Assembly: GCA_014800945.1 (NCBI GenBank)
Contig: JAAVFD010000014.1
Coordinates: 1-64,000 of the forward strand
Length of the DNA stretch: 64,000 nt
Direction of reading: 5' to 3'
From: Barnesiella sp.
GTDB taxonomy: Bacteria; Bacteroidota; Bacteroidia; Bacteroidales; Muribaculaceae
A program made the translations under genes and the position numbers. The notes under the pieces were generated by a model that saw only the letters and a list, made by a program, of their open reading frames with translations, was not told the DNA's origin and searched no databases. Shown piece after piece: positions 10,085 through 57,100 of the stretch. Position 1 is the first letter of the stretch; each line of letters opens with the position of its first letter.

Positions 10085-11275
10085 ATGAAAGCTAAATCAC
10101 TGTTAATACTGTTCGCGTCGATGGCATTTGCTGTAACGGCGCAGGATAAGAATGATTTCAACCCCCTGCAGACAGGAGTTAACTCGCTAAACATAGCTCC
10201 GGATGCGAGAGGCTCATCTATGGGTGATCTGGGAGCGGCAACGGATCCGGATGCCAATTCTCAGTTCTGGAATCCATCGAAATATGCCTTTTCATTCAGT
10301 AAAGCGGCTGTGTCACTGAGTTATACACCTTGGTTGAGAAAGATTGTAGATGATATTTATCTCGCCAATATAGCCGGTTATTGGAAGATAGGCAATTCCG
10401 ACAATCAGGCTGTGAGTGCGTCACTCCGTTATTTCTCTCTTGGTGAGGTTACTTCCGGTAACGATGGAATAGGTGATATTCAAAGCGTTAACCCTTATGA
10501 GCTGAGTTTTGATGTAGGATATTCCAGAAAGCTGTCTGAAAAATACTCCATGGGTGTCGTTCTGCGTTACATTTACTCTGATTTGGGCTTCTCCGATTCA
10601 TATCAGGGTGACAATAGTACAGGTGCGTCAGCTTTCTCAGCCGACATCTCGGGTTACTATACCACATTTCCTATGATTGGCAGAAACGAATGTCAGTGGT
10701 CCTGGGGATGGAATATATCAAATATTGGTACAAAGGTTTCTTACAACCACGGGGAAGACCCGGCGTTCTTGCCCACCAATCTGAGACTCGGCACTAATTT
10801 CACATTCCCTCTTGCTGATTATCATAACCTGTCAATTGGACTTGACCTTAACAAACTTCTTGTTCCGGCGCGTCCTCGTGAAAAGGATTACGATACATCT
10901 ACTACAGACGGTCAAAAGGAATATCTAAACGCACTTGAGAACTGGGAGAATATGTCACCGATCACCGGTATATTCAAATCTTTTTCAGATGCTCCAGGTG
11001 GATTCAGTGAAGAAATCAAGGAGATAATGTGGTCACTGGGCGCTGAGTACTCATATAACCAGCAGTTCTTCGCCCGCGCAGGATATTTCCACGAGAGCTC
11101 AATGAAGGGAAACCGTCAGTATTTCGGGTTCGGTGCCGGATTTGCGATGAATATTCTGCGTATAGACGCGTCATATATGCTCGCTACCGCTCAGACTTCA
11201 CCTCTTGACCAGACTCTCCGTTTCACACTCACTTTCGATATGGACGGAATCAAGGAAATATTCGGTAAAAAGTAA
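10085..11275 (+). CDS. porV: Type IX secretion outer-membrane protein PorV (LptO)
   Basis: [39 protein letters not shown] signature and beta-barrel pattern. Confidence 0.88.
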
Positions 11276-11276
11276 C

Positions 11277-11765
11277 ATGGATACATTCCCGGAAATAAGA
11301 ACAGGACTCGGCATGGATGTCCATGCCTTTGCTCCGGACAGAGAATTGTGGATTTGCGGCGTAAAGATACCGTATGAATTGGGGCTTCTCGGGCACAGCG
11401 ATGCAGATGTTGCCCTTCACGCACTTTCAGATGCAATTTTGGGCGCTGCGGCTCTCCGCGATATCGGTTACCATTTTCCGGACACAGACCCTCGCTTCAA
11501 AGGTGCAGATTCCAGAGTTCTGCTGCGCCATGTGGTGAGTTTGATTAAGGGAAAGGGCTATACAATTTCCAATGTGGATGTAACCGTAGTGGCTCAGGTA
11601 CCGAAAATGGCTCCGTACATAGAGCAGATGAGAGAAACGGTAGCCTCAGACTTAGGAATTGATGTTGACCGGGTATCTATAAAAGCCACAACCACAGAAC
11701 ACCTCGGCTTTACCGGTCGCAAAGAGGGCATAGCCTCCTTTGCAACCGCCCTCCTCCTCCGCTAA
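11277..11765 (+). CDS. ispF: 2-C-methyl-D-erythritol 2,4-cyclodiphosphate synthase
   Basis: [42 protein letters not shown]. Confidence 0.97.
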
Positions 11766-11779
11766 TAATCAACAGTTAT

Positions 11780-12841
11780 TTAACCATCAATGGATTGGTA
11801 TAATCTGTACATGCACTCTATTTGAAGTTTAATAGAGGCATTTAATGAAGTCGGTGATAATACAATTAATTCGGAACCAAAAGACGTTAGTTCACGAATT
11901 AACTCATAGTTTTCTTTGCACTTTATTTTGAAAAACTTACCTTCACTCAGTAAGGGAAAGCGGGTTCTTAAAGTAAACTCTTCTTCTCCACGAATACTCT
12001 TTTGTGATTCATGAATAGGTTTTGTGGAGATATAATCCTTAGATTTATTCGATACCCAAAATATAATTTCTTCAATCGGACTATTTTCACAGAATGTAAC
12101 ACCTATAATGTCCTCATACCGTTCTATAAGATCCTCCGGAGCATGTAGGTAAGAGCTACGATAGTCTAAACTGAAATCATCTATGCGGTCAAGTGGGAAT
12201 GTTAATATCTTTCCAGTATCAGATGCAGCAGCGATAAGAAACCATCTGTTGTTATATTCTTTAATAAGATATGGAGATACTGTTACAGTTTTGCTACTAT
12301 TATTCGAAAAGGTATGGTATTTTAATGAAATTACTTGATTGTATCGTATTGTGGTGAAGAGTCTTGCAATTAGTGTAGAATTGGTAAGTATATTCTTAGA
12401 TATTGAAATGATAGGACTGTGTTCAACAAGATCTAAACGAGATTTTAAATCACTTAACCATTCAAAATTATCAAGACCGTCAAATCTACCAAGAATATCA
12501 AGAGCTGTAGATAAAACAGTCTTTTCATCGTCAGATAATTTGGGCTTAAAGATAGAAAATGTGGGGTCAGCATACCTGATGCAGCGCTTACGGTAAGGCC
12601 GGTCATTTTTATCGCATGCTTCTACCCAATGTTCTTCAATCTCTATATCGAATGGACTGTCAAATTCCAAGTAGTTAAGATCTTTTTCTACACATCGTTT
12701 TGAAACAGGCCTTTGCCCTATCTCTGGTAATTTTTCAGCTAATGTATCTGTTATATCTTGGATAGAATATGCTCTGTGGCGATTGGCAAGCATTTTGTCA
12801 ATCAGCGCATATCGAGTCATTGCATTCTTATTTGTAGGCAT
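11780..12841 (-). CDS. WYL-domain transcriptional regulator
   Basis: N-terminal HTH (MTRYALIDKMLANRHRAYSIQDITDTL), WYL core (PYLIKEYNNRWFLIAAASDTGKILTFPLDRIDDF) and WCX-like C-terminus. Confidence 0.88.
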   Translation of the reverse strand: MPTNKNAMTRYALIDKMLANRHRAYSIQDITDTLAEKLPEIGQRPVSKRCVEKDLNYLEFDSPFDIEIEEHWVEACDKNDRPYRKRCIRYADPTFSIFKPKLSDDEKTVLSTALDILGRFDGLDNFEWLSDLKSRLDLVEHSPIISISKNILTNSTLIARLFTTIRYNQVISLKYHTFSNNSSKTVTVSPYLIKEYNNRWFLIAAASDTGKILTFPLDRIDDFSLDYRSSYLHAPEDLIERYEDIIGVTFCENSPIEEIIFWVSNKSKDYISTKPIHESQKSIRGEEEFTLRTRFPLLSEGKFFKIKCKENYELIRELTSFGSELIVLSPTSLNASIKLQIECMYRLYQSIDG

Positions 12842-12851
12842 GATTATATAT

Positions 12852-14474
12852 CTATGACTTTAATACCTTTATTGCTGCCCAACGACCATCTTTCTGTTGG
12901 ATAGAAAGAATTTTTATTGTTTGCCCATCGTTGATATTAGTCAATAAATTCTCACCTATATACGAGCCTGAAATTATTGCATATTTTTTCCCATTCCTAT
13001 CAGTGCGCAGTAGAACGTCCCCATTTGATTCCTTAAGCCATGATTCAGATATGCAGCCATCATGTTCTTTAATCCAAACAATTTTTCCGTCATGTAGCTT
13101 TATATCAAAGATGGCTCCATTAGGGATGCGCATTTTAAGTCGAAATTTAGTCGGTTTCCGCAATCGTATAGTGTCGTTTGCAGTGCGTAGAATCCAAGTT
13201 GTGATTTTGCGCCCCGGGTGATTCCGATCCTCACTTTGGTTTTCACCAACCTTTGCGGCAACTATGGTAGGCAAAGAGCTATAAATAAATTCATCAGCTC
13301 TGACAGCATATTCAGAATATATTAAATTGTTGTCAATAGCCTGTTTCACTGAACTAACATGATTATGGATTTGCCAAAATTCCGGTTTTAAATTCCATCC
13401 TTTGTTTTTATAGGTTTCTCTATATTTGTCAAGTTCGTACCGAGCGTTTTCACTCATCCCTTTCTGATGTAACAAAGATGCGAGTCTTAGACGTACACTT
13501 CCTAGAAATTCATCATCAGTACCGCAAGTTAGCGCCTTACACAGTAAGCCAATTTTCGTGTCAATATCTTCAATAAGTTCAGCGGTGTAACTCCATAAAT
13601 AGAATTTTGATGGAAATTTAAGAATTAAGTTCTTATAATAAGTTAAGGCCTCTTCAGCTTTCCCTTGAGAAATAAGAACGGTTGCCTTGAAATACGGCAT
13701 ATTCTGGCTTTTTGGATATTTTACCAGAGCCTTATCAACCAGTTGGATGAAATCTTCTGATGCTTCGACTTTATCTGTCTTAAGTTCCTTAACATATACC
13801 CCGATGAGCTTTTCTACCAATGACGGCAAAGTGTTGCCATTATCAGTGCGATATTGTTCCCAATCCTCATCACGAAGATTTTCAAGTCCCCAGATACGGA
13901 TAAAATCTCTAATGCGGAACTGTAGAGGTGTGTTCTGCTCAATCTTTATTGCTTCACCGAGGAAGAGAGAATGAAGAATGGATGGTTTGGGCAAATTTAA
14001 TTGAAGATATTGGTTGAGAAGAGTTTTACGTTTGTCGGCATCTCCAAGATTTGTCTGTTTTAATACATAATATGTTAACCAGCCAAAATCTTGATACAGT
14101 TGTGGATCAATCTCTCCATTTTTAAACCATTGTACGATACTGTTATGTAAGGATGTGATGTCTATTCCACTTTTAGCTTTATCTAAGCCATCCTTAATAT
14201 CATGGAAATGCAGAATACTTTGGCGCTCCGCAGAAGCAAGTGCATTGAGCATGAGCTCATCACCGTCGCAATAATCATTATATAGAGTCTTCATTCGCTC
14301 TATTGTCGCACTTGCATCATTTCTGTGCTGTTGTTTGTAAAGATCGTTCAGGCACCAAAATAATGCTCCTACAGAATATATATTTACACTTTGTGCTAAT
14401 TCTTTTTCGGCGGCTTCTAACGCTTCTTGAAGATGTCCGGATTTACGAAGTGCTGTAATCTCTTTTATTGTCAT
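12852..14474 (-). CDS. TPR-like repeat protein with C-terminal beta-rich (possibly OB/S1-like) domain
   Basis: helical repeat pattern (ALEAAEKELAQ; EEALTYYKNLILKFPSKFYLW) followed by beta-rich 'GAIFDIKLHDGKIVWIKEHDG'. Confidence 0.6.
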   Translation of the reverse strand: MTIKEITALRKSGHLQEALEAAEKELAQSVNIYSVGALFWCLNDLYKQQHRNDASATIERMKTLYNDYCDGDELMLNALASAERQSILHFHDIKDGLDKAKSGIDITSLHNSIVQWFKNGEIDPQLYQDFGWLTYYVLKQTNLGDADKRKTLLNQYLQLNLPKPSILHSLFLGEAIKIEQNTPLQFRIRDFIRIWGLENLRDEDWEQYRTDNGNTLPSLVEKLIGVYVKELKTDKVEASEDFIQLVDKALVKYPKSQNMPYFKATVLISQGKAEEALTYYKNLILKFPSKFYLWSYTAELIEDIDTKIGLLCKALTCGTDDEFLGSVRLRLASLLHQKGMSENARYELDKYRETYKNKGWNLKPEFWQIHNHVSSVKQAIDNNLIYSEYAVRADEFIYSSLPTIVAAKVGENQSEDRNHPGRKITTWILRTANDTIRLRKPTKFRLKMRIPNGAIFDIKLHDGKIVWIKEHDGCISESWLKESNGDVLLRTDRNGKKYAIISGSYIGENLLTNINDGQTIKILSIQQKDGRWAAIKVLKS

Positions 14475-14497
14475 ATTCCTTAGTTTTTATGGGAACT

Positions 14498-16573
14498 TTA
14501 AATAAACCGTTCTCTAAGTGCCTTAAGTTTAGTATCGAGAGAGCCAAGTGAACTTGTCAATCGCATATAAGTATAGTTCCCTTTTGCGGTATAGGTTAAG
14601 CCTATTTGTGCAATACCGTCTGTTTTTAAGTGGAACACATCTTGATAATTTTGTTGAGTTATATCCAGCAACTGAATTCCAACCTCTTCAATCTGACTCT
14701 TGACAAAATTCACTAACTTTTCAGCAAAAGGTCTATTTGGTGCTGAAAATGGGACAGTGTCTGGGGCGTATGAGGCATCAATCAATGGCGAGCACAGCGC
14801 AGTAAACTCTTCCGACGATGAAAATAAGAGTACATCCTTTGCGCTATATCCCTTAGCCCTATACCACAGTTGGAATGTTGCTTTTGCGCCATTTTTATCT
14901 GAAAACGTGATAATATGCTGATATGAATTGGATCTATCCTCAATTACAGATAATTCATTTTGCGTGGCAAGAGTAGTTAAGCGCTCAAATCTGGCGTCGC
15001 AGAAGTTTCCCTCTCCAGAGTAGTTGCTTATCTTTATATTGGCTGACGGCTTAATCTCCTCTACTACCAGATTACTGACATAGTTAAAATCTGGTGACCG
15101 GAAGTGCCAAATACGTTTGCTTGCACGTGTAATAGCTGTGTAAGCCCAGCGGAAGTAATCTTCGTTGGCCGTACCTCCGAACCGACACATATCCACAAAC
15201 ACATTATCCCATTCGCCACCCTGAGCTTTATGACAAGTCATGGCATAGCCATATTTACATATAACAGCGTTGTAATAGGGGTCCTTGTTTAGAAGATTTA
15301 TATATGCATCACAGAGTTCTTGCTGTTCAATCGTAAGTTTTTCCTTTGATCGGAGGAGCCGCCGAATTTCACTTTCTCTGGATTTTATATTTTGTGGTAG
15401 ACGATTGTTAAAGTCAACGATTAATGCGCGTGCTAATAGACCTCCTACTGAAGCATTAGGATTGTCAAGGAAGTTGTCGAGTAGCATCACATTTAACGAT
15501 ACTCGTTCGCCTCGTACTCCAAAGCAAATCGTTGCACGGCGGAACCTTAATTCCACTTGTTCGACTCTATTCTTCCCTAATTTAACTCTTATATATCGCG
15601 TTTTTACCTCCGAATCCGGTTGACAGTCTTTAACTTGAATGATATTGCCGTTGAATAATTCATATTCGTAAGAATAGTTATTGCGGCATATCAACAAAAG
15701 ATCTCCTGCTTTAAGTCGCGGAGCGGTATCACCGTAATAATGCCTTCGGATAGCAAGATTATAGTCTAACGCCTGTTTGTTACTAAAGGCAATTACCGTA
15801 GCCTTTACACTCGGCTTATTTTCAGATAATAGATAATACGGGGTAAGTAAATCTATATTTTCAGCAATAGAATCGTCTCCGTTGTCAAGACTGAATTCAA
15901 TGAAGGATTTCCGCTCCACGGCATCTCTAATTTTAGAAGCATTCGAAAGCATAACGCTCCCTTCGGATTGGCGCATAACTTCACGAAGCATAAATTCGGT
16001 GACCTTACAACTGAATTTAGTTTCAATATAATCCTTGTCGAGGGCAGGTGAGAAATTCATCCCGACCGGTGGGAGCTGGGCATAATCACCAACCAAAACG
16101 ATTTTACGTCCACGTGCAAACTCAAACAAGTCAGTCAGTAGGCAACCCGAGCCAAATGAAAAGGCCTCATTCTCCGAGAATTTATCGGATACCATTGAGG
16201 CCTCATCAACAATATACACCGCATTTAGTGAATCATTATTGACCTTTAATCCAAATCTTAGATGTATCCCGCCATCCTCCTCATCCTCTTTATCTTGACT
16301 TGCTGATTTTAGTTTTGACAGGCCATAAATACTCCTATGGATGGTATATGCTGGTTTCTCGGTTTTATTTCCAATGATACAGGCAGCTCTGCCTGTTGGT
16401 GCCATCAAACCATACTCACGTTTCTGTTCCTCAAGAATTTTAATGAATTCCGTTACAAGGGTAGTTTTGCCCGTACCAGCTGCTCCCTTGAGTATAAGCA
16501 CCAGCTCATCGGCTTCAAGAAATTCCTTGAAAGCAACTATTGCTGATTGTTGAGATGAAGTAAGCTGAAGCAT
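14498..16573 (-). CDS. RecD/Dda-like SF1 DNA helicase
   Basis: LKGAAGTGKTTLV (Walker A), YIVDEASMV (Walker B), GDYAQLPPVG, C-terminal YAMTCHKAQGGEWDNVFVD...RWAYTAITRASK. Confidence 0.92.
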   Translation of the reverse strand: MLQLTSSQQSAIVAFKEFLEADELVLILKGAAGTGKTTLVTEFIKILEEQKREYGLMAPTGRAACIIGNKTEKPAYTIHRSIYGLSKLKSASQDKEDEEDGGIHLRFGLKVNNDSLNAVYIVDEASMVSDKFSENEAFSFGSGCLLTDLFEFARGRKIVLVGDYAQLPPVGMNFSPALDKDYIETKFSCKVTEFMLREVMRQSEGSVMLSNASKIRDAVERKSFIEFSLDNGDDSIAENIDLLTPYYLLSENKPSVKATVIAFSNKQALDYNLAIRRHYYGDTAPRLKAGDLLLICRNNYSYEYELFNGNIIQVKDCQPDSEVKTRYIRVKLGKNRVEQVELRFRRATICFGVRGERVSLNVMLLDNFLDNPNASVGGLLARALIVDFNNRLPQNIKSRESEIRRLLRSKEKLTIEQQELCDAYINLLNKDPYYNAVICKYGYAMTCHKAQGGEWDNVFVDMCRFGGTANEDYFRWAYTAITRASKRIWHFRSPDFNYVSNLVVEEIKPSANIKISNYSGEGNFCDARFERLTTLATQNELSVIEDRSNSYQHIITFSDKNGAKATFQLWYRAKGYSAKDVLLFSSSEEFTALCSPLIDASYAPDTVPFSAPNRPFAEKLVNFVKSQIEEVGIQLLDITQQNYQDVFHLKTDGIAQIGLTYTAKGNYTYMRLTSSLGSLDTKLKALRERFI

Positions 16574-16574
16574 T

Positions 16575-18119
16575 TTACTCAGAGATCACATGTTTTCCGA
16601 TAAAACCGATTAGAAACTCACAGAGTTTCAGTGTCCACTCTTGAATCAGTGACGCACTTATATTTTCTTCGCGACAATCTATCTTAACCGTCTTGTCTCC
16701 ATGAGCAAGAGAGTTTCGGATACTATCAATATTGTTCCAATATTTCAAGATATTTATCGGAGCATTATTTTGAACATAATCATTAATAAACTTATACTCA
16801 CTTGATTTCTCTGTTTCAAGAATCGAAAACAAGTCAAGAAATACTAATTTAAGTATGTCTTCACTTAAAGCATTGTTCTGAGTGAGTTGTCGAACAGATT
16901 GTGAAGTTATATCTGCTGCTACCTTGACATCAGAATTAACTGCAATCTCAAGTATCATATCCAACTTCACATTGAGTGGTATCAAGAATTTCGCCCGGTC
17001 AATAGCTGTTTCCAGTGTAGTGACCATGCTGGAAATTACTTTCTTTGTAATTTCCTTTCCGTGGTAATTTTCGGCCTTCTCCTTTAAAATGAAACCATCA
17101 GCGTTCCCTTGACGCAATAAGAGTATGTTTTCTATTCTGCTTGTAGCGGTGAATATAATCACTTGACGACCAAAAGATCCCAATGGCTCCTTATAATCTC
17201 CTTTAAGAACATTGGCAAGCACGCGATATCCACTTATCTTCTTCATCTCATCCTTTACCTCTGCATCCTTATCTTCCATCAGACGGAAATCTAGGATAAT
17301 AACATCAGGTTTGAAATTATCAACCTCATCAACAATAATTTTTTCGATATCTTCAAATGCCAATTTGTTGAAGTTCTCCCCAATACAGTGTACCTCAACT
17401 TTATCAGTTTTCGAGAACATTTCTTTGAAAAATCTGTGCCACCCATCTTTATCATCAATTACGAGTATGCGGGATGCAGGGATATCGGAAATCCTATTTT
17501 TTAAATGGTCGGAGGCTTTCTTGTTCTTTATTATATTGAGTTTCTCAAGAGTTATAAGATAATCAAAATATAGATAACCTTCCAAAGATGATGCATTCTC
17601 ATTAAGACCCATAAATGAATTCCATTTGAACAAGCACCATTCATTTGTCAATGAATGAGTTGATTTGAAGGAAGAAGGAATTTTAAGGCCAAGGTTGTCA
17701 AGAAACGGCTTGTACTCTTCGACTCTCATTTTATTTCGCAGTGGCAATTCATAGGACGCAACAAACATTTTGTTGAATCGGATATAATGCATACTAGGTA
17801 TTTTGAGCGCATTAGGATAGTCGTAATGCAGTAGGAAATTCGCTTCTGATTCGTTACCCATTAAAACTATATTAATGTCCGTCCTATCATTACTGAGGTA
17901 CTTCATCAGGATCCTCAATGCTAGATTCACTCCACTATAGGATAATGAGTTGCTATAGTCGCGTACAGTCGGAATGAAAAATAGCAACTGTTTGTCTTGA
18001 GGAAGATTAAGTAGATTTTCAGTTATGTCGCTTCCAAATACCAAAACCTTATCAATTCCCCATTCGGAAGCTTGTTCTTGTCTGACAATAGTGGTATTGA
18101 AGGTTATTAGATATTTCAT
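16575..18119 (-). CDS. Response-regulator-like protein with canonical receiver and C-terminal HEPN-like RNSLAH motif
   Basis: RILVIDDKDGW...PDVIILDFRL...VIIFTATSR...GFILKE carries the receiver D/T/K residues; C-terminal NIDSIRNSLAHGD fits Rx4H; start trimmed to MKYLITFN. Confidence 0.75.
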   Translation of the reverse strand: MKYLITFNTTIVRQEQASEWGIDKVLVFGSDITENLLNLPQDKQLLFFIPTVRDYSNSLSYSGVNLALRILMKYLSNDRTDINIVLMGNESEANFLLHYDYPNALKIPSMHYIRFNKMFVASYELPLRNKMRVEEYKPFLDNLGLKIPSSFKSTHSLTNEWCLFKWNSFMGLNENASSLEGYLYFDYLITLEKLNIIKNKKASDHLKNRISDIPASRILVIDDKDGWHRFFKEMFSKTDKVEVHCIGENFNKLAFEDIEKIIVDEVDNFKPDVIILDFRLMEDKDAEVKDEMKKISGYRVLANVLKGDYKEPLGSFGRQVIIFTATSRIENILLLRQGNADGFILKEKAENYHGKEITKKVISSMVTTLETAIDRAKFLIPLNVKLDMILEIAVNSDVKVAADITSQSVRQLTQNNALSEDILKLVFLDLFSILETEKSSEYKFINDYVQNNAPINILKYWNNIDSIRNSLAHGDKTVKIDCREENISASLIQEWTLKLCEFLIGFIGKHVISE

Positions 18120-18121
18120 TT

Positions 18122-18766
18122 TTATTGAAATCTGTGAATGTGTTTGTCTATAATAATAGCTAAATCGAGCCAAGTAATTTGTGGGGTCGCCTCTATCTCT
18201 GAGATTATAGCAGCGCGTAAGTCCTCCTCATGGATTTTCCGACATGAGTTTTCAATATCCCGTTTTACATTTTCAAGTTTATCATATAACGCTGTATCTA
18301 TGTCATTGTTTATGAGATATTTTTGCGATATGGAATTCTGGAACTCAAGTAAAGCATTAAGTCTATATCTTTTACCCCATAAAAGGATGTTGATGTTGAT
18401 CTCCCCATTTTCTTTAAGGTTTTCAAGAAAGAATGGTAGATTATTATACATCAAGTCAGCATTCATATTGATTTCTTTGTCCCTTTTGTTGCTGCCCTCT
18501 GTTCCACCGCTAAATATTACAATTGGAATATTTAAGGAAGTAAATAATTGTCGAATTGATTCAAATGTTACATTCTCATCTCCTAATGCGTAAGATTTAT
18601 GGAAAATAATACATTCCGGATTCTCTATAGAATCAAAAATACTTTCTTCTGCCGATTTACCCGAAATCACCTTTAAAGTATCAAATGTAATGAGATCGGA
18701 AAAATCACGCAACTTATCTTCGTTATACTTGCGTCGTTGAGCTCTGTCATCAAAGATATATATCAT
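18122..18766 (-). CDS. Receiver-like protein, probably degenerate (pseudo-receiver)
   Basis: MIYIFDDRAQRR beta1-like, CIIFHKSY lacking the phospho-Asp, IPIVIFSGG beta4-like; TAATG overlap with upstream gene. Confidence 0.5.
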   Translation of the reverse strand: MIYIFDDRAQRRKYNEDKLRDFSDLITFDTLKVISGKSAEESIFDSIENPECIIFHKSYALGDENVTFESIRQLFTSLNIPIVIFSGGTEGSNKRDKEINMNADLMYNNLPFFLENLKENGEININILLWGKRYRLNALLEFQNSISQKYLINNDIDTALYDKLENVKRDIENSCRKIHEEDLRAAIISEIEATPQITWLDLAIIIDKHIHRFQ

Positions 18767-19872
18767 TACCGTTTATAGATTTTGAGTTGATATTTTATTC
18801 CTCCTACTTCATTATCAGAGGTATTAATGTCACATGGAGACATAATCTTTGCCTTAATATATGTGCCTTCACTTAATGCGTTGACTTCAAGTGAACCTTC
18901 TTTCTTACCATCCTTTATGTAATCGCCCACTAATGAAAAATCACAGACGGAAAACAATCTTTTACGAAGTTCTTGGAGATCTCCTGATGGGTTCTTAAGC
19001 TTGTCTATATTACTAAAGTAACTTCCCACATGAATAATATCCAACATATAATATTCATTCTCACTAATTAAGTTTATATTAACACTTGAACTTCTCGCCT
19101 TATGTTTCACCATCCAGTTACAGATAGTATTTAACGCGCTAAGAACACCAATCACATCACAATAGACATTAAGATCATAGCCAATTTCATCAAATTTAGA
19201 ATCAAATTTAATTTCAAAGTCTTTAGGTAGATCAGACTTTATCCTATGCCAAATTAATTCGCTGAATCTGTCTTCATCATTTAAATCTGTTCTAAACTCA
19301 ATCACAGCCTTGAACATTCTTATGTAGTCCATAAATTGATGTCCGTCCTCCAGGATGAGATTCTCAACCGGGATTTCCGGCTGTTCTTTACTTAAATTCA
19401 CAATTGAATGCCAACCGCAACGTATGTTTTCAAGCTTACTATTTTTCCAAGCATAAGTTTTTTCTCCTGAATTTGCGAAACTAATGAAATTCCAAACCTG
19501 ATTATATGTCTTTTCATTCACCACCGGACCAGACTCTTTGGGATAGACCATATTACTTAAGTCATACTTAACGATTGTCTGTCTTTCACTCATTTCGGCT
19601 ATATTGAGTGCAGTTGAAACATCCCACTTATGGGTATACCATTTAAACCGATCATCTCGAGAAAAAAGAGACAGAAACTTAATCATTGTTTGTGGCGAAT
19701 GATAAAGAGTGATATTGGATATAGGCTTTGCCAGTTTTCTATTTCCTTCAATTTCTAAACGAGCCAAGCAAGAATCTAATCGGTGTTTCAAATCTGTATA
19801 CGACGTTACCCCTTCCTTCAAGAAAGAGATAAAATCTAGTTGTTCTTCGGTGACATTATAAGATTTAATCAT
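18766..19872 (-). CDS. Uncharacterised protein with possible degenerate GHKL/HATPase-like C-terminus
   Basis: VLSALNTICNWMVKHKARSSSVNINLISENEYYMLDIIHVGS resembles an N-box/G1 layout with the canonical DxGxG replaced; stop overlaps next start. Confidence 0.4.
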   Translation of the reverse strand: MIKSYNVTEEQLDFISFLKEGVTSYTDLKHRLDSCLARLEIEGNRKLAKPISNITLYHSPQTMIKFLSLFSRDDRFKWYTHKWDVSTALNIAEMSERQTIVKYDLSNMVYPKESGPVVNEKTYNQVWNFISFANSGEKTYAWKNSKLENIRCGWHSIVNLSKEQPEIPVENLILEDGHQFMDYIRMFKAVIEFRTDLNDEDRFSELIWHRIKSDLPKDFEIKFDSKFDEIGYDLNVYCDVIGVLSALNTICNWMVKHKARSSSVNINLISENEYYMLDIIHVGSYFSNIDKLKNPSGDLQELRKRLFSVCDFSLVGDYIKDGKKEGSLEVNALSEGTYIKAKIMSPCDINTSDNEVGGIKYQLKIYKR

Positions 19873-20063
19873 GGCTTAATGTTAATTTCAGAATCAAAAC
19901 CCTTAAGTATGTCTATCCAATCAAAGGTATATTTTAAATTGAGTCCCTGTTTCTTTATCACAATTTTTTGTAGGGAAATTCAACCGTCTTTAAAATATTA
20001 CAATTTGATTAGGAAGAGAGCTCGTGGATATGACATTTTATTTAGATGATTTATATTTTTATT

Positions 20064-21530
20064 CTAGTTAGCCTTATTATCCTTTAGTTTTTTCCACTCC
20101 CTCACTGCGGCATCAAGTCCTTCTTTCTCCCAAATGCTAAGAAGCTGCTCAATATCCGTTTTTAATGGTTTACTTGGAATGTAGGCCAATAATAAGCGTA
20201 TAAGCCTTTTCCTATGAGTCATAGTAAGTTTGGGATTGTTAAGGAAATAATTAAGTAAATGCTCATTACCGGAAACGATTGAATCTCTACTTGTTATCGA
20301 CATATACCCAGATTCAGCAAGTTCTTCGACCGCACTTTCAATCCCACCCTTTTCCCAAATATCAAGGAGCCCATCCAGAGAAACTTTAAGATTTTGGTTC
20401 CTCAGGCAGCGAGAATATTTTAGCTCAAATTTAGTATTGATCCTGAAGTTTTTAACATCATTCTTGTGGTGTATGAATATTATTTCTTGTAGTACTTCAA
20501 AACGCTTAGCAAGTTTTTGATATGCAAAATTAGATTCTCCGCGTATCATTCTCAGATAATTGAGTTTGCCACTAATGACGTTTACTAATGCTGGTTCACA
20601 CTTCTTTATGTATCCTTTCTCTTGCTGGTATTTTGGATTGAAAAGTGCCTGAGCCTTATCATATCCATCTTTTTCCCAAATAGCCAAGATCCAACGTAAG
20701 TCACTTATATATTTTCGAGAAACATTGGCTACAGCATTTACAGTCAGCCCTGTTACTTCTTGACGAGTATCTTTTTTCTGTAGCCTTGTTTTGGACTCAT
20801 TAATATGAAATCCCTGCTCATCAATAATACGCGAGATCTCTACGCGAAAATCCCCATCTTCTTGATAGACGTTGTGCATACTTGAAAAAGTCATATCATC
20901 AGCATAACGGCTATAATGGATACCGAATCTTTTAGCAACACCTTTCATTCGCCGATCAAGTTTATCGCAAATTGCGTTTGTAAGTAAGGGTGAAGTCGGA
21001 GACCCTTGAGGTAACACGTTTAATTTTAAACTTTCATCATAAGTGCAACATAATCCTGCTAGAACGTTAGCAATCTCTAAAGAAAAATTGAATGGTGGCA
21101 GTTGGAGACGTTTCCACACTCTTGCCTGAGAAATGGAAGGAAAAAAGTCTTTAAGATCTATATTGAACACATAATTAAATCCAACATGGATTTGTGCATT
21201 ATTCAAAACGGATCTACCAGAAGTAAAACCCATAGCAACGTCAGAAGGCTCATATATAGATTTGAACAAAATATTCAAACAAGTAAGAATCACCTGCAAT
21301 TGTTGACAGGGTGCTTTAATTTCACGAAATCCTCCACTTTTCTTCCTAATGTAGAATGTGCGGAATCGTTTCCGCGCTATCGTATCGGAAGAGAAGTGCT
21401 TAAGCATTTTCTCTGAGATGTTATAACTAATCGAACCAAACTCATACCGTTTGATAGTGTCAAGAATAACTGCCACATCTTTAACAGTCTTCATTTTTTT
21501 TAGTTGCTCGATTACTACAAGTTTATCCAT
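20064..21530 (-). CDS. Retron-type reverse transcriptase with C-terminal extension
   Basis: retron region X NAQIH, FNIDLKDFFPS, LPQGSPTSP, YADDMTFS, region Y EVTGL; 488 aa, with ~110-130 aa beyond the RT/thumb region. Confidence 0.93.
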   Translation of the reverse strand: MDKLVVIEQLKKMKTVKDVAVILDTIKRYEFGSISYNISEKMLKHFSSDTIARKRFRTFYIRKKSGGFREIKAPCQQLQVILTCLNILFKSIYEPSDVAMGFTSGRSVLNNAQIHVGFNYVFNIDLKDFFPSISQARVWKRLQLPPFNFSLEIANVLAGLCCTYDESLKLNVLPQGSPTSPLLTNAICDKLDRRMKGVAKRFGIHYSRYADDMTFSSMHNVYQEDGDFRVEISRIIDEQGFHINESKTRLQKKDTRQEVTGLTVNAVANVSRKYISDLRWILAIWEKDGYDKAQALFNPKYQQEKGYIKKCEPALVNVISGKLNYLRMIRGESNFAYQKLAKRFEVLQEIIFIHHKNDVKNFRINTKFELKYSRCLRNQNLKVSLDGLLDIWEKGGIESAVEELAESGYMSITSRDSIVSGNEHLLNYFLNNPKLTMTHRKRLIRLLLAYIPSKPLKTDIEQLLSIWEKEGLDAAVREWKKLKDNKAN

Positions 21531-21544
21531 AAAAATATGCGAAA

Positions 21545-21752
21545 TGAAATTGATGAGCCAATACTCTTTTCTTTGTTTTAAGATTTTTGAAAGTAATTAG
21601 AAAAATCAATAATTTTAATAATTATTATAAAAATCAATAAATCAGTCAAAGACTGTAAAAAAATATACCGTTGGGTTATCATTCTTTAAAAAAGAATGAC
21701 ATCCGACACACGTCGGACTAGAGTCAAAATTTGTTTGGTCTCATCAATTTCA
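21545..21752 (-). ncRNA. Candidate retron msr-msd RNA
   Basis: perfect 13-bp inverted repeat TGAAATTGATGAG (21740-21752) / CTCATCAATTTCA (21545-21557) flanking tandem hairpins, 14 nt upstream of the RT start codon. Confidence 0.75.
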
Positions 21753-21776
21753 ATGTTCGCTTATTGTTTGATACTG

Positions 21777-21784
21777 CAAAGTTA
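21777..21784 (-). promoter_or_regulatory. Bacteroidetes -7 element TAACTTTG, putative retron promoter
   Basis: CAAAGTTA on + strand, 24 bp upstream of the a1 repeat of the candidate ncRNA. Confidence 0.55.
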
Positions 21785-21883: not shown

Positions 21884-23815
21884 TTAGCGGATGATTATTT
21901 CGTCGGCGAACTGGCAGCCTTCTTTGGCTTTGGCGATTACGCGGATATAGCGTGCTTTTGCAATTCCTTTCCAGGCGTATTCCTTGAATGAAACTCCTTC
22001 AGTCGGTTTCTGCTCATGCTCTATTGTGGTCAGGGGCGTGAAGTCCACACCGTTGTCTGAAATCAAGAATTGGACTGAGGATGGAAACCATACGCCCGGC
22101 CCGATAAGCTGCATAAATTCAATACCGATGAATTTAACAGGCTGAATGGACTCCAGATCCACAGTCACATCCATGCGGTTATCTCCTTTGCTGAGGAATC
22201 CTTGCCATAGGTTGTCATTGTAATTCCATCCGCCTCTTATACCATCGGTAAGGGTGGATTTTCCTGCGGCAGGGTATCTGTTCCACCACGGTATGTGGTA
22301 TTTAACCGGTTTGCCTAAGGCTAAATGTTTTTCAGGTCGCAGTGCTTCCGGTTTGTTACCTATTTCGTGCTTTATGTCAAACACATTGTAGCCTTTGCTT
22401 TTCATATCCGCAGCAAGATTTTCAGCGCGTAATCGGAAATCGGGGTAGTTTTTCAGGCTGTCGGGAGTCCAGGCAGTTTCGGCTATGGCGAACATTCGGG
22501 GATATAGCATATATTCGGCGTGGTCTGCGGTGGGAATATATTCACACCATAGATTGCCCTGAATGCCGATGATATGACCGGCAATATCTGAGCTGACAGA
22601 GTCGGGAACAGGATTGTAAGCATACACCTTCTGCAGCGGAAGGTAGCCTCCGATAGCTTCCGGCTGTGAATAGGGAGCGTCCTGGTAGCCATCGAGATAG
22701 CAATAGGCCCCAGGTGACATTATTGCATCGTGACCGCTCTTTGCTGCAGCTATTCCACCTTGAGTGCCTCTCCATGACATCACGGTTGCATCAGGAGTCA
22801 GTCCCCCTTCCATAATTTCATCCCATCCGAGCAGTTTTTTGCCCTTGGAGTTGAGGTACTTCTCTATTCTGCCTATAAGATAGCTTTGTAGTTGATCAAC
22901 GTTTTCAAGCGAGTTGTCTTTCATTCTTTTGCGGCATAGCTCACACTCTTTCCAAGCTTGCTTGCTCGCTTCATCACCTCCTATGTGAATATATTTGCCG
23001 GGAAAGAGTTCAATAACCTCATCCAGAACGTTCTGCAAAAATTCAAATGTCTCCTCATTGCCAACGCAGAAGTCTGATTGTCCGCCCCGGTTGTGGTTGC
23101 AGGATAGATTAGGGTATGTGGCGGTAACTTCCTCAGAGTGAGAGGGCATTTCAATTTCCGGAACCACGGTGATGTATCTTTCGGCTGCATATTCAACAAT
23201 TTCTTTAATATCAGCTTTTGTGAGATATCCACCTTGAGCGGCAGTGTCAGACTCATGGCAATAGTTGTTGCCAGATTCGTTCCACTCTTTCCATGTTGCT
23301 CCTTTGCGCCAGGCTGCGAACCCTGTCAGTTCGGGATATTTGTCTATCTGTATCCTCCATCCGGCGGCATCGGTGAGATGAAGATGCAGAGTGTTGAGCT
23401 TTAGCCGCGCCATTGCGTCTATCTGCTTCTTTATGAACTCCTTGTCGCGGAAATGGCGGGAAATGTCCAGCATCATTCCACGGTAGCTGAAACGTGGTTC
23501 ATCGGTTATTGTGCAAGCAGGTATTCTGTTTCTGTCTCCTTCCATTTCTTTCAAAGTGACGAGTCCGTAATAAAGTCCAGCCTGAGATTTAGCATAAACA
23601 GCAGCGCTGTCCGGTGTGACTTTAAGCATATAACCTTCGGGTGACGATATACCCGGAAGTGTATCCACTAAGTTAAGATACACATCGGCAATTGTTTTCA
23701 GAACAAGTTCTCCTGAAGCGGCAGTATAGTTCAGAGGTTTAGGTATTACAGGATTAATAGCGCTGCAATAAAGTGCGGTGATGCCGACAACAAGCGAGAG
23801 CAGATAGATTCTCAT
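21884..23815 (-). CDS. GH20 beta-N-acetylhexosaminidase with C-terminal F5/8-type C-like domain
   Basis: HLHLTDAAGWRIQIDKYPELT, HIGGDEASKQAW, GWDEIMEGGL; discoidin-like C-terminus. Confidence 0.93.
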   Translation of the reverse strand: MRIYLLSLVVGITALYCSAINPVIPKPLNYTAASGELVLKTIADVYLNLVDTLPGISSPEGYMLKVTPDSAAVYAKSQAGLYYGLVTLKEMEGDRNRIPACTITDEPRFSYRGMMLDISRHFRDKEFIKKQIDAMARLKLNTLHLHLTDAAGWRIQIDKYPELTGFAAWRKGATWKEWNESGNNYCHESDTAAQGGYLTKADIKEIVEYAAERYITVVPEIEMPSHSEEVTATYPNLSCNHNRGGQSDFCVGNEETFEFLQNVLDEVIELFPGKYIHIGGDEASKQAWKECELCRKRMKDNSLENVDQLQSYLIGRIEKYLNSKGKKLLGWDEIMEGGLTPDATVMSWRGTQGGIAAAKSGHDAIMSPGAYCYLDGYQDAPYSQPEAIGGYLPLQKVYAYNPVPDSVSSDIAGHIIGIQGNLWCEYIPTADHAEYMLYPRMFAIAETAWTPDSLKNYPDFRLRAENLAADMKSKGYNVFDIKHEIGNKPEALRPEKHLALGKPVKYHIPWWNRYPAAGKSTLTDGIRGGWNYNDNLWQGFLSKGDNRMDVTVDLESIQPVKFIGIEFMQLIGPGVWFPSSVQFLISDNGVDFTPLTTIEHEQKPTEGVSFKEYAWKGIAKARYIRVIAKAKEGCQFADEIIIR

Positions 23816-51188: not shown

Positions 51189-54100
51189 ATGCGCATTAAG
51201 TTTGATATATATCATATTTGTTCTGTTCTGGCGGTTTTTATCGCTTGCTTTTTTTCGTGCGCGTACGCGCACGCAAGCAACGATTCTATTCCCGTGCAGG
51301 TCAAGAGCACTGTTCCAACCGATTACCGGAATTTGGTTTCTAAACCTTATCCCTCAGATCTAAGAACACCGGAAAACATTAAGACTCAGGCGGAATATGA
51401 CGCTCAGACCGGTTTGTATGTCATCCGCACCACGGTTGGCGACATGGATATAGTCACTCCCTTTACCCTTACTCCGGCTCAATACCGTCTTTGGCAGAAC
51501 GATATTTCCATGAGGCAGCGTTGGCGGGAGCTTGACAAGCAGACCGCTGAGGGAAAAAACAAGGAGCCCTTCAATGTGCTTGATATGAATTTTGCCCTTG
51601 GGCCGCTTGAACGTATTTTTGGCCCCGGCGGGCTCAGGCTCCGCACTCAGGGGTCTGTTATGATAACAACAGGAATCAAGACCACAAAAACAGATAATCC
51701 GGCACTGTCTTTACAGAGCCGGAGAAAAACTTTTTTTGACTTTGACCAGAAAATTCAGGCGACAATAAACGCCAGTGTTGGAGACCGATTGAAGTTTGAC
51801 ATGACATACAATACCGATGCCACCTTTGACTTCGATTCCAAGAATCTGAAACTAAAGTATGACGGCACAGAAGATGATATTGTAAAAAGCATCGAAGCCG
51901 GTAATGTGAGTATGACTACCGGGTCGTCACTCATAAGAGGGAGTGCCGCGCTTTTCGGTTTGAAGAGCACTCTGCAGTTTGGAAAGCTGACTGCAACCGC
52001 TCTCGTTTCACAACAAAATTCCGAATCCCGTTCTGTAAGTACAAGCGGTGGAGTTCAGACCACTCCGTTTAAGGTCAATGCCGATGAGTACGATCAGAAC
52101 AGACACTATTTTCTGGCTCAATTCTTCCGCGACAATTACGACTCATTTGCATCTCGATTGCCTTTTGTTGCCGGTGGTGTGAAAATCACCAGAATAGAAG
52201 TTTGGGTGACTAATAAGAGCGGGCACTATAACCAGAGCAGAAACATTGTCGGTTTTATGGACCTCGGTGAAAACACACGGCTTGTTTCAGATTACTGGAC
52301 ACCGGATCGCTCATTTGACAATCCTTCCAACTCCTCAAACAATCTTCTAAATGTAATCAAGACAGATTACCCGGGGGCAAGAAATATCAATACTGTCACT
52401 CAGGCACTTGCTCCGTTGGCTTCATACGGCATTGAAGGAGGGAGGGATTTTGAAAAAGTAGAGAGCGCAAGGCTACTGTCTTCAAACGAATATACTCTAA
52501 ACTCAACTCTCGGTTATATATCACTGAAAAGTCAGCTGAACTCAGATGAGGTTCTCGGAGTTGCATTTGAATACACTTATAACGGACAAGTTTTTCAGGT
52601 TGGTGAATTTTCTTCCGACATTACTGAAACCGATCTTTCGCTCTATGTCAAGATGCTCAAGAGTACCACTCAGGATCCCAAACTGCCGATGTGGAGACTC
52701 ATGATGAAAAATGTATATTCGCTCGGTGCATATCAGGTGCAGAAGGATAATTTCAAACTATACATCAAATACCTTTCCGATACCACCGGTACCGAAATTA
52801 ACTTTCTACCGATTCCATCTGTCAGCGGCACACCACTTCTTCAGCTTGTCGGGCTTGACAGAATAGATTCCAATGAAGAATCCAATCCGGATGGATTTTT
52901 TGACTATATTGATGGTTACACAATCCTTCCATCGTCAGGCAAGGTGATATTTCCCGTTGCGGAGCCATTTGGCGAAGCGCTCAAAAGGCGAGTTAATGAC
53001 CCCGCCGTAGAGCCATTCCTGTATCAGGAGCTATATGATTCCACCCTGGTGGTTGCAAGACAGTTTGCTGATAAAAACAAGTTTATCATTACCGGTGAAT
53101 ATCGGGCAAGTGCCGGTTCACAGATAAGACTTGATGCTATGAATGTGCCCAGAGGCTCGGTAATAGTTACCGCAGGAGGTGTAACCCTTGTAGAAAACAG
53201 TGACTATACTGTGGATTACGCTATGGGAATAGTCACTATTACCAACCAGAGTATTATTGATTCAGGACAGAGTATCAATGTAACCCTTGAAAATCAGTCG
53301 CTTTACAGTACTCAGCGTAAAACCTTACTGGGACTTGACCTGAATTATAAGTTCAGCAAGGAGTTTAACCTTGGTGCAACAATCATGCACTATTCGGAAA
53401 AATCTCTTGTAGAGAAGGTCAATATAGGAAATGAGACAGTCAATAACACTATTTTCGGTCTCAATATGGCATATAATACTCAGCTTAACTGGATTAATAC
53501 ACTGTTGAATAAAATCCCGACAGTTGATGCCTCCGCACCGTCAAATCTCAGTATTGTCGGGGAGGTTGCAAAACTTATGCCGCATCAGCCAAAATCCGGG
53601 TCAAATTCCGGCAGCTCATATATTGATGATTTCGAAAGCTCACAGGTGGGTATAGACTTGAGGTCACCGTTTGCATGGTTCTTAAGTTCTACACCCTATG
53701 AAAATGGAGCAGGAGCTCTTTTTCCGGAAGCAGCGTTGAGCAATAATCCGGAGTATGGCATGAACAGAGCGCTTATAAACTGGTACTATATCGACAGGCT
53801 CTTTACACAGCGCAATTCATCTCTATGTCCGGGTTATCTCAGGAGTGACCTCAAGCAGCAGTCCAACCCATACGTCAGAGAAATCACATCACGAGAAATT
53901 TTCCCCGACCGCCAGCTCACCTATGGCGAGTCATCAACTATTCAGACACTAAACATCTCTTTTTATCCGGAAGAGCGAGGTCCCTATAATGTGGATGCCA
54001 CGAATATAGACAGTGAAGGAAAACTGTTGTATCCTGAAAAGAGATGGGGAGGAATAATGAGGCGACTTGATAATACGAACTTTGAGCAAAGCAATATAGA

Positions 54101-57100
54101 ATACGTTCAGTTCTGGCTCATGAATCCGTTTCTTGACCCGGAAAATCCCAACTATGAAGGGGGTGATCTTTATTTTAACTTCGGAGAAATAAGCGAGGAC
54201 ATTCTTAAAGATGGTATGAAATCCTACGAGAACGGAATTCCGGTGGATGGTAACGAAAGTTTCATGCAATCAACGAACTGGGGCCGTGTTTCATCACAAA
54301 ACTCTCTGACATACGCTTTTGATAATAATTCCTCTGCAAGAAACATTCAGGACGTGGGTCTTGACGGACTGCCGAATGAAAGTGAATTCTCGTTTCCCAC
54401 TTATGGGGAATATGTGGATGAACTTCGCCGACGTCTCCCGGCGGAAACAATATCAAAAATGGAAAATGACAAGTTTTCTCCCATGAATGACCCCGCCGGA
54501 GACAACTATCATTTTTACAGAGGATATGATTACGATGAGCAGCGACTCTCAATTCTTGAGCGTTACAAGCGTTACAATGGAGTGGAGGGTAACTCTCTCT
54601 CACCGGAGGACGCAGGAGAACCATTATATCAGTCATCGCGTAATTTGCCTGATGTAGAGGATATTAATCAGGATAATACCCTTAATGAGTACGAAAGATA
54701 TTTTCAGTACAGAGTGTCAATACGACCTGAAGACCTTGAAGTGGGGAAAAACTTCATCACCGACAAGCAGGTTTCAATGGTGAGTCTCCGTGACGGATCT
54801 GATGCCGAAGTGGAGTGGTACCAGTTCAAGATACCATTGAGTGAATATGAAAAGATTGTAGGTTCGATATCCGACTTTTCCACTGTCAGATTCATGCGAA
54901 TGTTCCTGACAGGCTTCAAGAAAACAACTCATTTGCGATTTGCTACTCTTGAACTTGTTAAAGGGGAGTGGCGCACATATGATTTCAGCCTGAACACCAG
55001 AGGTGATGCTCCGGCTGAAGGGCAGCTTGATGTATCGGTGGTGAATATCGAGGAAAATTCTTCGCGCACACCGGTCAACTATATACTGCCACCGGGAGTT
55101 AATAGAATTTCCGACCCTGCTCAAACTCAGATTGTTCAACTTAATGAGCAATCGCTATCGCTTGCCGTGAGCAATCTCGACGCAGGAGATGCAAGAGCGG
55201 TGTATCGAAACACGATGCAGGATTTGAGAAACTACAGCCGACTTCAGATGTGGGTTCACGCTGAGGCACCTATTAATGATTCGCATTCTCTCCGTTCAGG
55301 AGAACTGTCGTTGTTCGTGCGCCTTGGCAGCGATGTGAAAAACAATTACTATGAGTACTCCATTCCTCTAACGCTTACACCTCCGGGTAGATATTCAGAT
55401 ACAAGAGCCGACAGAGAAATAGTCTGGCAGCTTTCTAATAGACTTAATCTGCTGCTTGATAATCTTGTAGCGGTAAAAGAGGCAAGAAACAGGCTCAGAC
55501 AGGAGCATAATTCCGGTGTGGGTTACACAACTCTATATAGTGAGCGCGATCCCGACAACGAGCAAAACCTGATTTCAGTACTCGGCAATCCGTCACTCAG
55601 CGATGTGAGGGTTATGCTCATAGGTGTAAGAAACAATTCTTCCACAACCAAAGCGGGAACAGTATGGGTCAATGAACTCAAGGTTACTGACTTTGAGAGT
55701 TCCGGCGGATGGGCTGCTAAAGTAAACGCAAACCTCGGGCTGAGTGACATAGCTACCTTGAATTTCGGCACTCATATCGAAACGGCTGGATTCGGAGGAG
55801 TGGATCAGAATCTGAACTCACGCCGTATGGACGATTTCACTCAGATAAATTTCGCGGTGCAGGGTGATATCGGTCGTTTCGCACCATCCTCTGTTAAGCT
55901 AAAGGCTCCGGTTTATTATTCTGTAATGAAAGAGCGCACCAAGCCAAAATATAATCCGCTGGACAAAGATGTGCTGCTCAAGGATGCACTTGAAGATGCC
56001 GGTTCGGCAAGAGCACGTGACTCAATAGAATCCTACGCGATACAGCGCTCAACAGTTACAAGCTTCAGTGTAACCGGTCTGACCTTTGATGTTAAGAGCA
56101 AGACACCTAAGCCATGGGATCCGGGTAACTTTACTGTTAATTTCTCATTCAACAAACAGTCGAAGAGTGATCCGACTACCGAATATGAAAATGCAAATGA
56201 CTATCGTGGCAGTTTCCGCTATTCTTATTCACCCCGTGTCAAGGGACTCAAACCGTTTTCCAAAATCCGCTCAACCTCAAACAATGTGAAATTCTTTAAG
56301 GAATGGGAACTAAACTGGCTGCCTAACTCAATCTCTTTCCTTACCACAATGTCACGTTACTATTATGAGCAGCAGACACGCAGCGAAATAGACAATGGGT
56401 TTACATTGCCGGTTCAGGTGAGTAAAAACTTTTTGTGGGACAGACAGTTGAATCTTTCATGGGCTATAACTAAAAATATCAACCTTAACTTCACATCAAA
56501 TACTTCGGCGAGAATTGATGAACCGATAGGAGCTGTCAATAGAAAACTATTTCCTGATAAGTATAAGGAGTGGAAGGACACAGTCATGCAGTCGATTCTG
56601 CGCCTCGGCACTCCATGGGGGTATAATCAGACATTCTCGGCATCATATAAAGCACCGTTTAACAGAATACCTGTAATTGATTTTATAAACGGAGCCGTTA
56701 ACTATAACTCATCTTACCGTTGGGCAAGGGGAGCCACAGTTGATGGTGTGAATATGGGTAATTCAATAGCTAACCAAGGTGCATGGAGCGCTGACGGTAC
56801 CATTAGTTTTGAATCATTATATAATAAGATACCATGGTTTAAGAAGGTTGAGCAGCGGTTTTCCTCCGCTCCTATGCGACCGGGTGGCAGAAACACGACT
56901 GAAAAGACACGAAGATTTATAAGGTCATATCCCCTTAGTGAGGATACAACGGTTACAGTTACTCATAATATGAAAACAAAAAATGTAAATGTAACTGTAA
57001 CAGATGCAAACACCGGCAGGAAAATGAGCGTAAAAACCAGAGTTATTGATGAAAATAACGTGGAACTGCTTACCAGGGGCAAAACAAATGTGAATGTAAC

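Follow-up and report, generated by a model that had tools for sequence, protein, structure and literature searches.

Introduction

The question considered here is whether a retron and the six genes that follow it in the genome of a Barnesiella sp. (Bacteroidales, Muribaculaceae) constitute one new retron type or two neighbouring defence systems. The locus lies in a stretch of 64,000 nucleotides, which is called the window below (assembly GCA_014800945.1, contig JAAVFD010000014.1, positions 1 to 64,000). An earlier sequence-only reading had described it as a retron, then six further genes, all on the minus strand, in the order non-coding RNA (ncRNA), reverse transcriptase (RT), histidine-kinase-like protein, pseudo-receiver, receiver with a HEPN-like part, helicase, TPR protein and WYL protein, and the positions of the open reading frames (ORFs) agree with this. 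Based on comparisons among related loci, the ncRNA, the RT and the first three of the six genes (HisKin, g3 and g4) almost certainly constitute one conserved unit, and this unit is apparently an unclassified type of retron that extends across Bacteroidota. The components of this core in the window are as follows (E-values in brackets).

21539 to 21760, minus strand: retron ncRNA (msr-msd), 222 nt, recognised by its fold and its a1/a2 stem
20064 to 21530, minus strand: retron RT, 488 aa (RVT_1, 6e-20)
18766 to 19872, minus strand: HisKin, a HisKin-conflict histidine-kinase-like protein, 368 aa (PF22561, 5e-27)
18122 to 18766, minus strand: g3, a pseudo-receiver-like protein, 214 aa, with an invariant H56 in the alignment
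16575 to 18173, minus strand: g4, a putative iREC-REC-HEPN effector, 532 aa, from an alignment of 34 proteins and profile matches

The retron and the signalling genes as one conserved unit

When a single genome of each species was scanned with the g4 alignment, 40 loci were obtained, and removal of duplicates, a spurious match, a short fragment and loci cut by contig ends left 36. In 35 of these 36 deduplicated loci with an intact 5' side an RT gene lies directly upstream of g4, and when two Chryseobacterium plasmids and one faecal scaffold labelled as phage are added the proportion becomes 38 of 39. A HEPN-bearing g4 protein, the putative effector associated with the retron, is found in the aligned intact loci. 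The RT is fused to HisKin in 18 loci (about half), RT, HisKin and g3 are fused together in L069 and g3 is fused to g4 in L073 and L084, while across the loci the median spacing among RT, HisKin and g3 is 1.5-5.5 nt and g3 and g4 overlap.

In the sole exception, L058 (6915-11587), the RT is missing and HisKin is instead fused to TPR repeats, with g3 and g4 after it; this replacement supports the view that HisKin, g3 and g4 make up a signalling module with interchangeable sensors. Its layout is like that of the Detocs defence system with a HEPN output. Note also that L095 (MT837349.1, 1532-6073), the 7-kb human faecal scaffold labelled as bacteriophage, carries an RT-HisKin fusion, g3 and g4; a search of a viral contig collection gave no relative.

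The linkage is also seen starting from the kinase-like gene. Since the RT-HisKin fusions otherwise draw the RT into iterated hidden Markov models, the HisKin model was built from the kinase-like part alone, and in 296 genomes of the order all seven matches above the cut-off, from seven families, lie in this operon. RT relatives with E < 1e-60 occur in 12 of the 296 genomes, so that by our own arithmetic the chance of seven out of seven is about 2e-11 under independence, with ancestry ignored. The search with g4 in the same sample found three other genomes, each with an RT just upstream. The co-occurrence of RT and cassette across genomes, which the sequence-only reading had proposed as a check, is thus borne out for these genes.

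It could be argued instead that the retron carries its effector in the C-terminus of its own RT and stands beside an unrelated signalling cassette, as the RT and HisKin genes in the window are separated by 191 nt and the C-terminal 130-aa extension of the RT has no family match in Pfam. However, the 38 co-occurrences among 39 loci, the 18 fusions and the seven of seven HisKin matches effectively refute this explanation, to which we give next to no credence.

The retron non-coding RNA

Three elements are read at the 5' side of the RT gene, as follows.

21776 to 21784, minus strand: putative promoter element TAACTTTGC, read in the sequence, which fits the Bacteroidota -7 element
21737 to 21760, minus strand: a1 arm GCGAACATTGAAATTGATGAGACC, pairing with a2
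21539 to 21559, minus strand: a2 arm GGCTCATCAATTTCATTTCGC, pairing with a1

The consensus of the Bacteroidota -7 promoter element is TAnnTTTG, and TAACTTTGC would initiate transcription a few nucleotides ahead of a1. A 236-nt segment containing the ncRNA folds with -64.1 kcal/mol (z = -7.4), a value equalled by none of 200 shuffles. For the 33 related RT loci the regions upstream of the RT have a mean fold z of -3.6, and in 15 of them the best inverted repeat is at the retron position, as compared with 3.5 expected from dinucleotide shuffles, a count of 15 being reached in none of 200,000 simulations. The two arms covary, with GCCTGCTGC and GCAGCAGGC in L054, GCTACTGC and GCAGTAGC in L075, and ATACTTGCC and GGCAAGTAT in L042. 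In L080, the nearest relative, the hairpin region is near-identical to that of the window, and the a1/a2 stem differs yet still pairs. A TTGA element 3' of a1 and a ACAAAGAA element 5' of a2 are present in most of 14 aligned loci. No match was obtained with Rfam at gathering thresholds, the retron ncRNAs of this clade evidently being outside the coverage of that database. With its a1/a2 stem and the RT motifs given below, the retron in the window is real.

The reverse transcriptase

The RT of the window has the motifs NAxxH at residue 111 (NAQIH), YADD at 209 and VTG at 259; among the linked RTs xADD is present in 34 of 34, VTG in 31 and NAxxH in 30. The nearest PADLOC models, both for the linked RTs and for most of the unlinked relatives, are those of retron types XI (RT-protease) and XII (RT-TIR), with RT-Protease_XI at 5e-100 and RT-TIR_XII at 3e-93 in the window, where the matches span residues 8-366 only. 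The likeness is thus over the polymerase part, whereas the partners here are HisKin, g3 and g4. Membership of type XI or XII was considered and is ruled out, because neither Pfam nor PADLOC finds a protease or TIR domain at the C-terminus of the window RT; the NCBIfam model Retron_TIR gives it a score of 272 against a cut-off of 600.

On the RT tree, linkage to HisKin needs 5 changes; shuffled labels need 18.1, and none of 500 shuffles came as low. The HisKin-linked RTs are thus strongly clustered, though not strictly monophyletic, and the nested RTs with other neighbours may have swapped partners.

Two further observations concern these RTs. The close relatives L038, L039, L040, L041 and L044, which have no HisKin, adjoin other genes, among them those for a subtilisin-family protein (L039), an RtcR/sigma-54 AAA protein (L044) and uncharacterised proteins of 295-306 aa (L038 and L040), and these neighbours are possibly further unnamed retron partners. 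In the window RT gene, a 28-nt repeat is present in three copies (20119-20146, 20344-20371 and 20665-20692), which encode helices of the IWEKxG type, one in the thumb region and two in the C-terminal extension.

The signalling proteins

In HisKin, F70, H81 and F187 are invariant, with H81 present in 34 of 34 aligned proteins. Its AlphaFold2 model has a predicted local distance difference test score (pLDDT) of 89, and its matches in the PDB are histidine kinase catalytic cores (best E 6e-5). A sequence search against solved structures with the HisKin and g3 profiles gave no meaningful relative. The HisKin domain may be a phosphotransferase or phosphotransferase-like domain, a pseudokinase or a scaffold; histidine phosphotransferases with such degenerate domains are exemplified by Spo0B and ChpT.

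The invariant H56 of g3 aligns with the phospho-aspartate of the g4 receiver. With a histidine at this place the usual acceptance of phosphate by g3 is therefore improbable, and the protein probably cannot take up phosphate in the usual way.

The 34 aligned g4 proteins are 17-24% identical to that of the window, and D240, D241, D295, K364, R486 and H491 are invariant in all 34, as is the HEPN motif R-x(4-6)-H, mostly in the form RNxxxH. Within the family, Pfam detects the receiver PF00072 in 33 of 34 proteins, iREC (PF22563) in 29 and HEPN_RiboL-PSP in four members (best E 1.1e-7). In the AlphaFold2 model (pLDDT 77) the receiver fits KdpE with a template modelling score of 0.85, and the C-terminus is largely helical. 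The g4 protein thus joins a receiver whose active site is intact to a HEPN domain whose catalytic motif is likewise intact, and the R-x(4-6)-H motif in a helical domain is as would be expected of a HEPN RNase, so that RNase activity is predicted. The sequence-only reading had called g3 a pseudo-receiver and g4 a receiver with a HEPN-like part; the calls for g4, weak on the single sequence, are firm across its relatives, g3 is at least receiver-like, and the structure prediction that it had suggested gave, for HisKin and g4, a kinase-core match and a KdpE-like receiver. When the divergent window sequence is included, the g4 alignment has no stretch conserved enough for a pattern search.

One may ask whether the genes could be a two-component system of ordinary physiology with no role in defence, as regulation is the usual role of receiver and kinase folds. 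The HEPN output and the retron RT with its ncRNA speak against this, as do the sporadic occurrence (7 of 296 genomes) and the position of the plasmid copies, and we consider it highly improbable. On the Chryseobacterium plasmids, among them NZ_CP094531 from a cultured relative, the core is annotated in the records as reverse transcriptase, hypothetical protein, hypothetical protein and response regulator, and it is flanked by genes for restriction-modification and for nucleases.

The helicase, TPR and WYL genes

The full extent of the island, and the genes with which it continues downstream of g4, are as follows.

21530 down to 11780, minus strand: the whole RT-to-WYL island, seven ORFs
14498 to 16573, minus strand: superfamily 1B RecD/Pif1-like helicase with a C-terminal TBP-TOTE domain (PADLOC PDC-M16A, 8e-170)
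12852 to 14474, minus strand: TPR/DUF7017 protein (PADLOC PDC-M16B, 4e-70)
11780 to 12841, minus strand: WYL-domain protein (WYL, 1.5e-11)

On the seven proteins of the window Pfam gives RVT_1, HisKin-conflict, a weak receiver in g4, AAA_30/UvrD_C_2 with the C-terminal TBP-TOTE, DUF7017/TPR and WYL. By ORF coordinates, HisKin and g3 overlap by one base of the TAATG type, and the gaps are 1 nt between g4 and the helicase, 23 nt between the helicase and the TPR gene and 10 nt between the TPR and WYL genes; these values accord with the gaps of 0-25 nt and the TAATG overlap that had been described from 19872 to 11780. The g4 gene is called from a TTG at 18173, and an ATG 18 codons further in is the likelier start. 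The flanks we take, by eye from the translations, to be an ispF-like gene (plus strand, 11205-11765) and a beta-hexosaminidase-like gene (21884-23815), and between such housekeeping genes the island looks like an inserted cassette. Elsewhere in the window, a plus-strand ORF of 2459 aa is present at 51189-58568.

It could be supposed from the tight operon in the window, and from about a dozen loci in which a helicase directly follows g4, that the seven genes belong together as a single obligate system, in which the helicase, TPR and WYL proteins are required. The wider distribution makes this quite improbable: 22 loci with RT and HisKin, separate or fused, followed by g3 and g4 have no PDC-M16 helicase or TPR gene detected downstream as compared with 9 that carry PDC-M16, and at 11 other PDC-M16 loci examined no RT, HisKin or g4 is nearby. 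Paired PDC-M16A and PDC-M16B matches in the window are confined to 12852-16573, and strong PDC-M16B matches occur in about 20 of the 296 genomes, with the retron core alongside only in G000, G026, G056 and G081. WYL genes flank many core loci on either strand and are also near the HisKin-less RT relatives L038, L040 and L044. Because the core occurs without PDC-M16, and both PDC-M16 and WYL occur elsewhere, the helicase-TPR pair is an optional module in its own right (PDC-M16, TOTE-like) and WYL is an optional regulator; the helicase as an obligate part was accordingly dropped.

The locus comparisons thus support reading the six-gene cassette as a composite, in which three genes are obligate partners of the retron, two form an optional module and the WYL gene, too, is optional. 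Of the two earlier proposals, a new retron type is supported for the RT and the first three cassette genes, while two neighbouring systems is rejected as between the RT and the signalling genes, although the helicase-TPR pair is part of a separable candidate system.

Other genes stand downstream of g4 at some loci. In L036 (11594-13786) the PDC-M16 helicase is replaced by one of the NERD-UvrD kind, a separate PDC-M16 pair lying about 14 kb off in the same genome, and elsewhere g4 is followed by an AAA_5 ATPase (L055, 11809-13917) or by a protein of 1724 aa that matches amino-acid permease and AAA_16 (L048, 82-5256). It is noted that the PDC-M16B model also matches the Methanocaldococcus jannaschii control genome.

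Model of the signalling pathway

We consider it probable that the core is an unclassified retron type whose output passes through a two-component-like module resembling Detocs. In the model, which is inference throughout, from sensing down to the cutting of RNA, the ncRNA would be copied by the RT into multicopy single-stranded DNA (msDNA), and HisKin would be kept off by the RT-msDNA particle. A phage activity by which the msDNA is changed or bound would free HisKin, the signal would reach D295 of the g4 receiver, and g4 would turn on its own HEPN RNase, by which host RNA would be cleaved and growth halted (abortive infection). The g3 protein would most likely damp or relay the signal, at the place of DtcB in Detocs, while the helicase-TPR pair would serve as an add-on arm and WYL would control expression.

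As to how the signal is carried, we give a phosphorelay about even odds: phosphotransfer is argued for because the active site of the g4 receiver is intact, and its standard form is argued against because the kinase-like domain is degenerate. Several points weigh against the model. HisKin has neither a conserved N-box Asn nor a DxGxG G1-box, and therefore ATP-dependent autophosphorylation is not supported. In the AlphaFold2 model H81 lies just past a short helix and not inside a long DHp helix, and is therefore a candidate phospho-site only. The relation of g3 to receivers is weak (hhalign against the g4 receiver, E 1.6e-4, probability 50%), and some close relatives of the RT stand without the HisKin module. 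True phosphotransfer, with the msDNA-bound RT gating HisKin, which through H81 would phosphorylate the receiver of the HEPN RNase, possibly via the His-for-Asp g3, is put forward tentatively, at somewhat less than an even chance.

Another way to account for the same proteins is a static complex, in which the RT-msDNA together with HisKin, g3 and the g4 receiver would sequester the HEPN RNase and infection would loosen the assembly, the domains serving for docking with no transfer of phosphate. HisKin without conserved ATP-binding motifs would fit this, and there is the precedent of the type IX retron-Kva2, in which a HEPN RNase is held inside the RT-msDNA particle (PMC13405049). However, docking alone leaves unexplained why the receiver site is invariant in 34 proteins so divergent from that of the window, and we regard the static complex as rather unlikely.

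Comparison with known systems

In Detocs, DtcA bears TPR repeats and the effector of DtcC is a PNP. DtcA is the histidine kinase, DtcB a phosphate buffer, that is, a second receiver absorbing stray phosphate, and DtcC the response regulator (PMC11728103). The likeness to the present core is in the three-part logic of kinase, small receiver-like protein and receiver-effector, and in the TPR repeats before HisKin in L058. By contrast, the sensor here would be the retron RT with its ncRNA, the C-terminus of g4 is HEPN and not a PNP-type effector, g3 has a histidine at the phospho-aspartate place, and the kinase-like domain is degenerate, its N- and G-boxes not being conserved, where for Detocs an intact ATP site is our assumption. 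The Detocs-named models gave no match to the core, with weak receiver-level matches only (PDC-M60B/C), and Detocs is compared here by layout alone.

In type IX retron-Kva2 the HEPN RNase is likewise the toxic output, held directly with a winged-helix partner and having no canonical HEPN motif (PMC13405049), whereas the HEPN domain here lies at the C-terminal end of an iREC-REC protein, carries the canonical R-x(4-6)-H and has no winged-helix partner. TOTE denotes TPR, OB, TBP and effector (PMC12458937); the PDC-M16/TOTE-like system shares the window helicase, with its TBP-TOTE domain, and the TPR protein, but covers these two genes only and mostly occurs without a retron. The HisKin-conflict (PF22561) and iREC (PF22563) domains are the same as those here, and their Pfam names already mark an association with conflict.

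No model of PADLOC or NCBIfam names the RT-HisKin-g3-g4 core, which agrees with the earlier view that the accessory set is outside the known retron effector families; the match to a named system that the sequence-only reading had raised exists for the helicase and TPR genes alone, as the PADLOC candidate PDC-M16. In the literature we found no report of a retron with a histidine kinase or receiver, the probable defining papers of HisKin-conflict and iREC lying outside the coverage.

Concluding remarks

The characterised retrons that we know of hold their effector in complex with msDNA. If the model is true, the present system would be, as far as the readable literature goes, the first case of a reverse transcriptase coupled to a two-component relay, and a kinase-receiver alarm chain in a retron would unite two immune logics thought to be separate. 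The comparisons also show PDC-M16 to be a mobile add-on and not a neighbour complete in itself. For the Bacteroidota, over which the unclassified retron type appears to extend, the system would offer a setting in which point mutations can probe how the sensing by msDNA leads to the activation of the effector.

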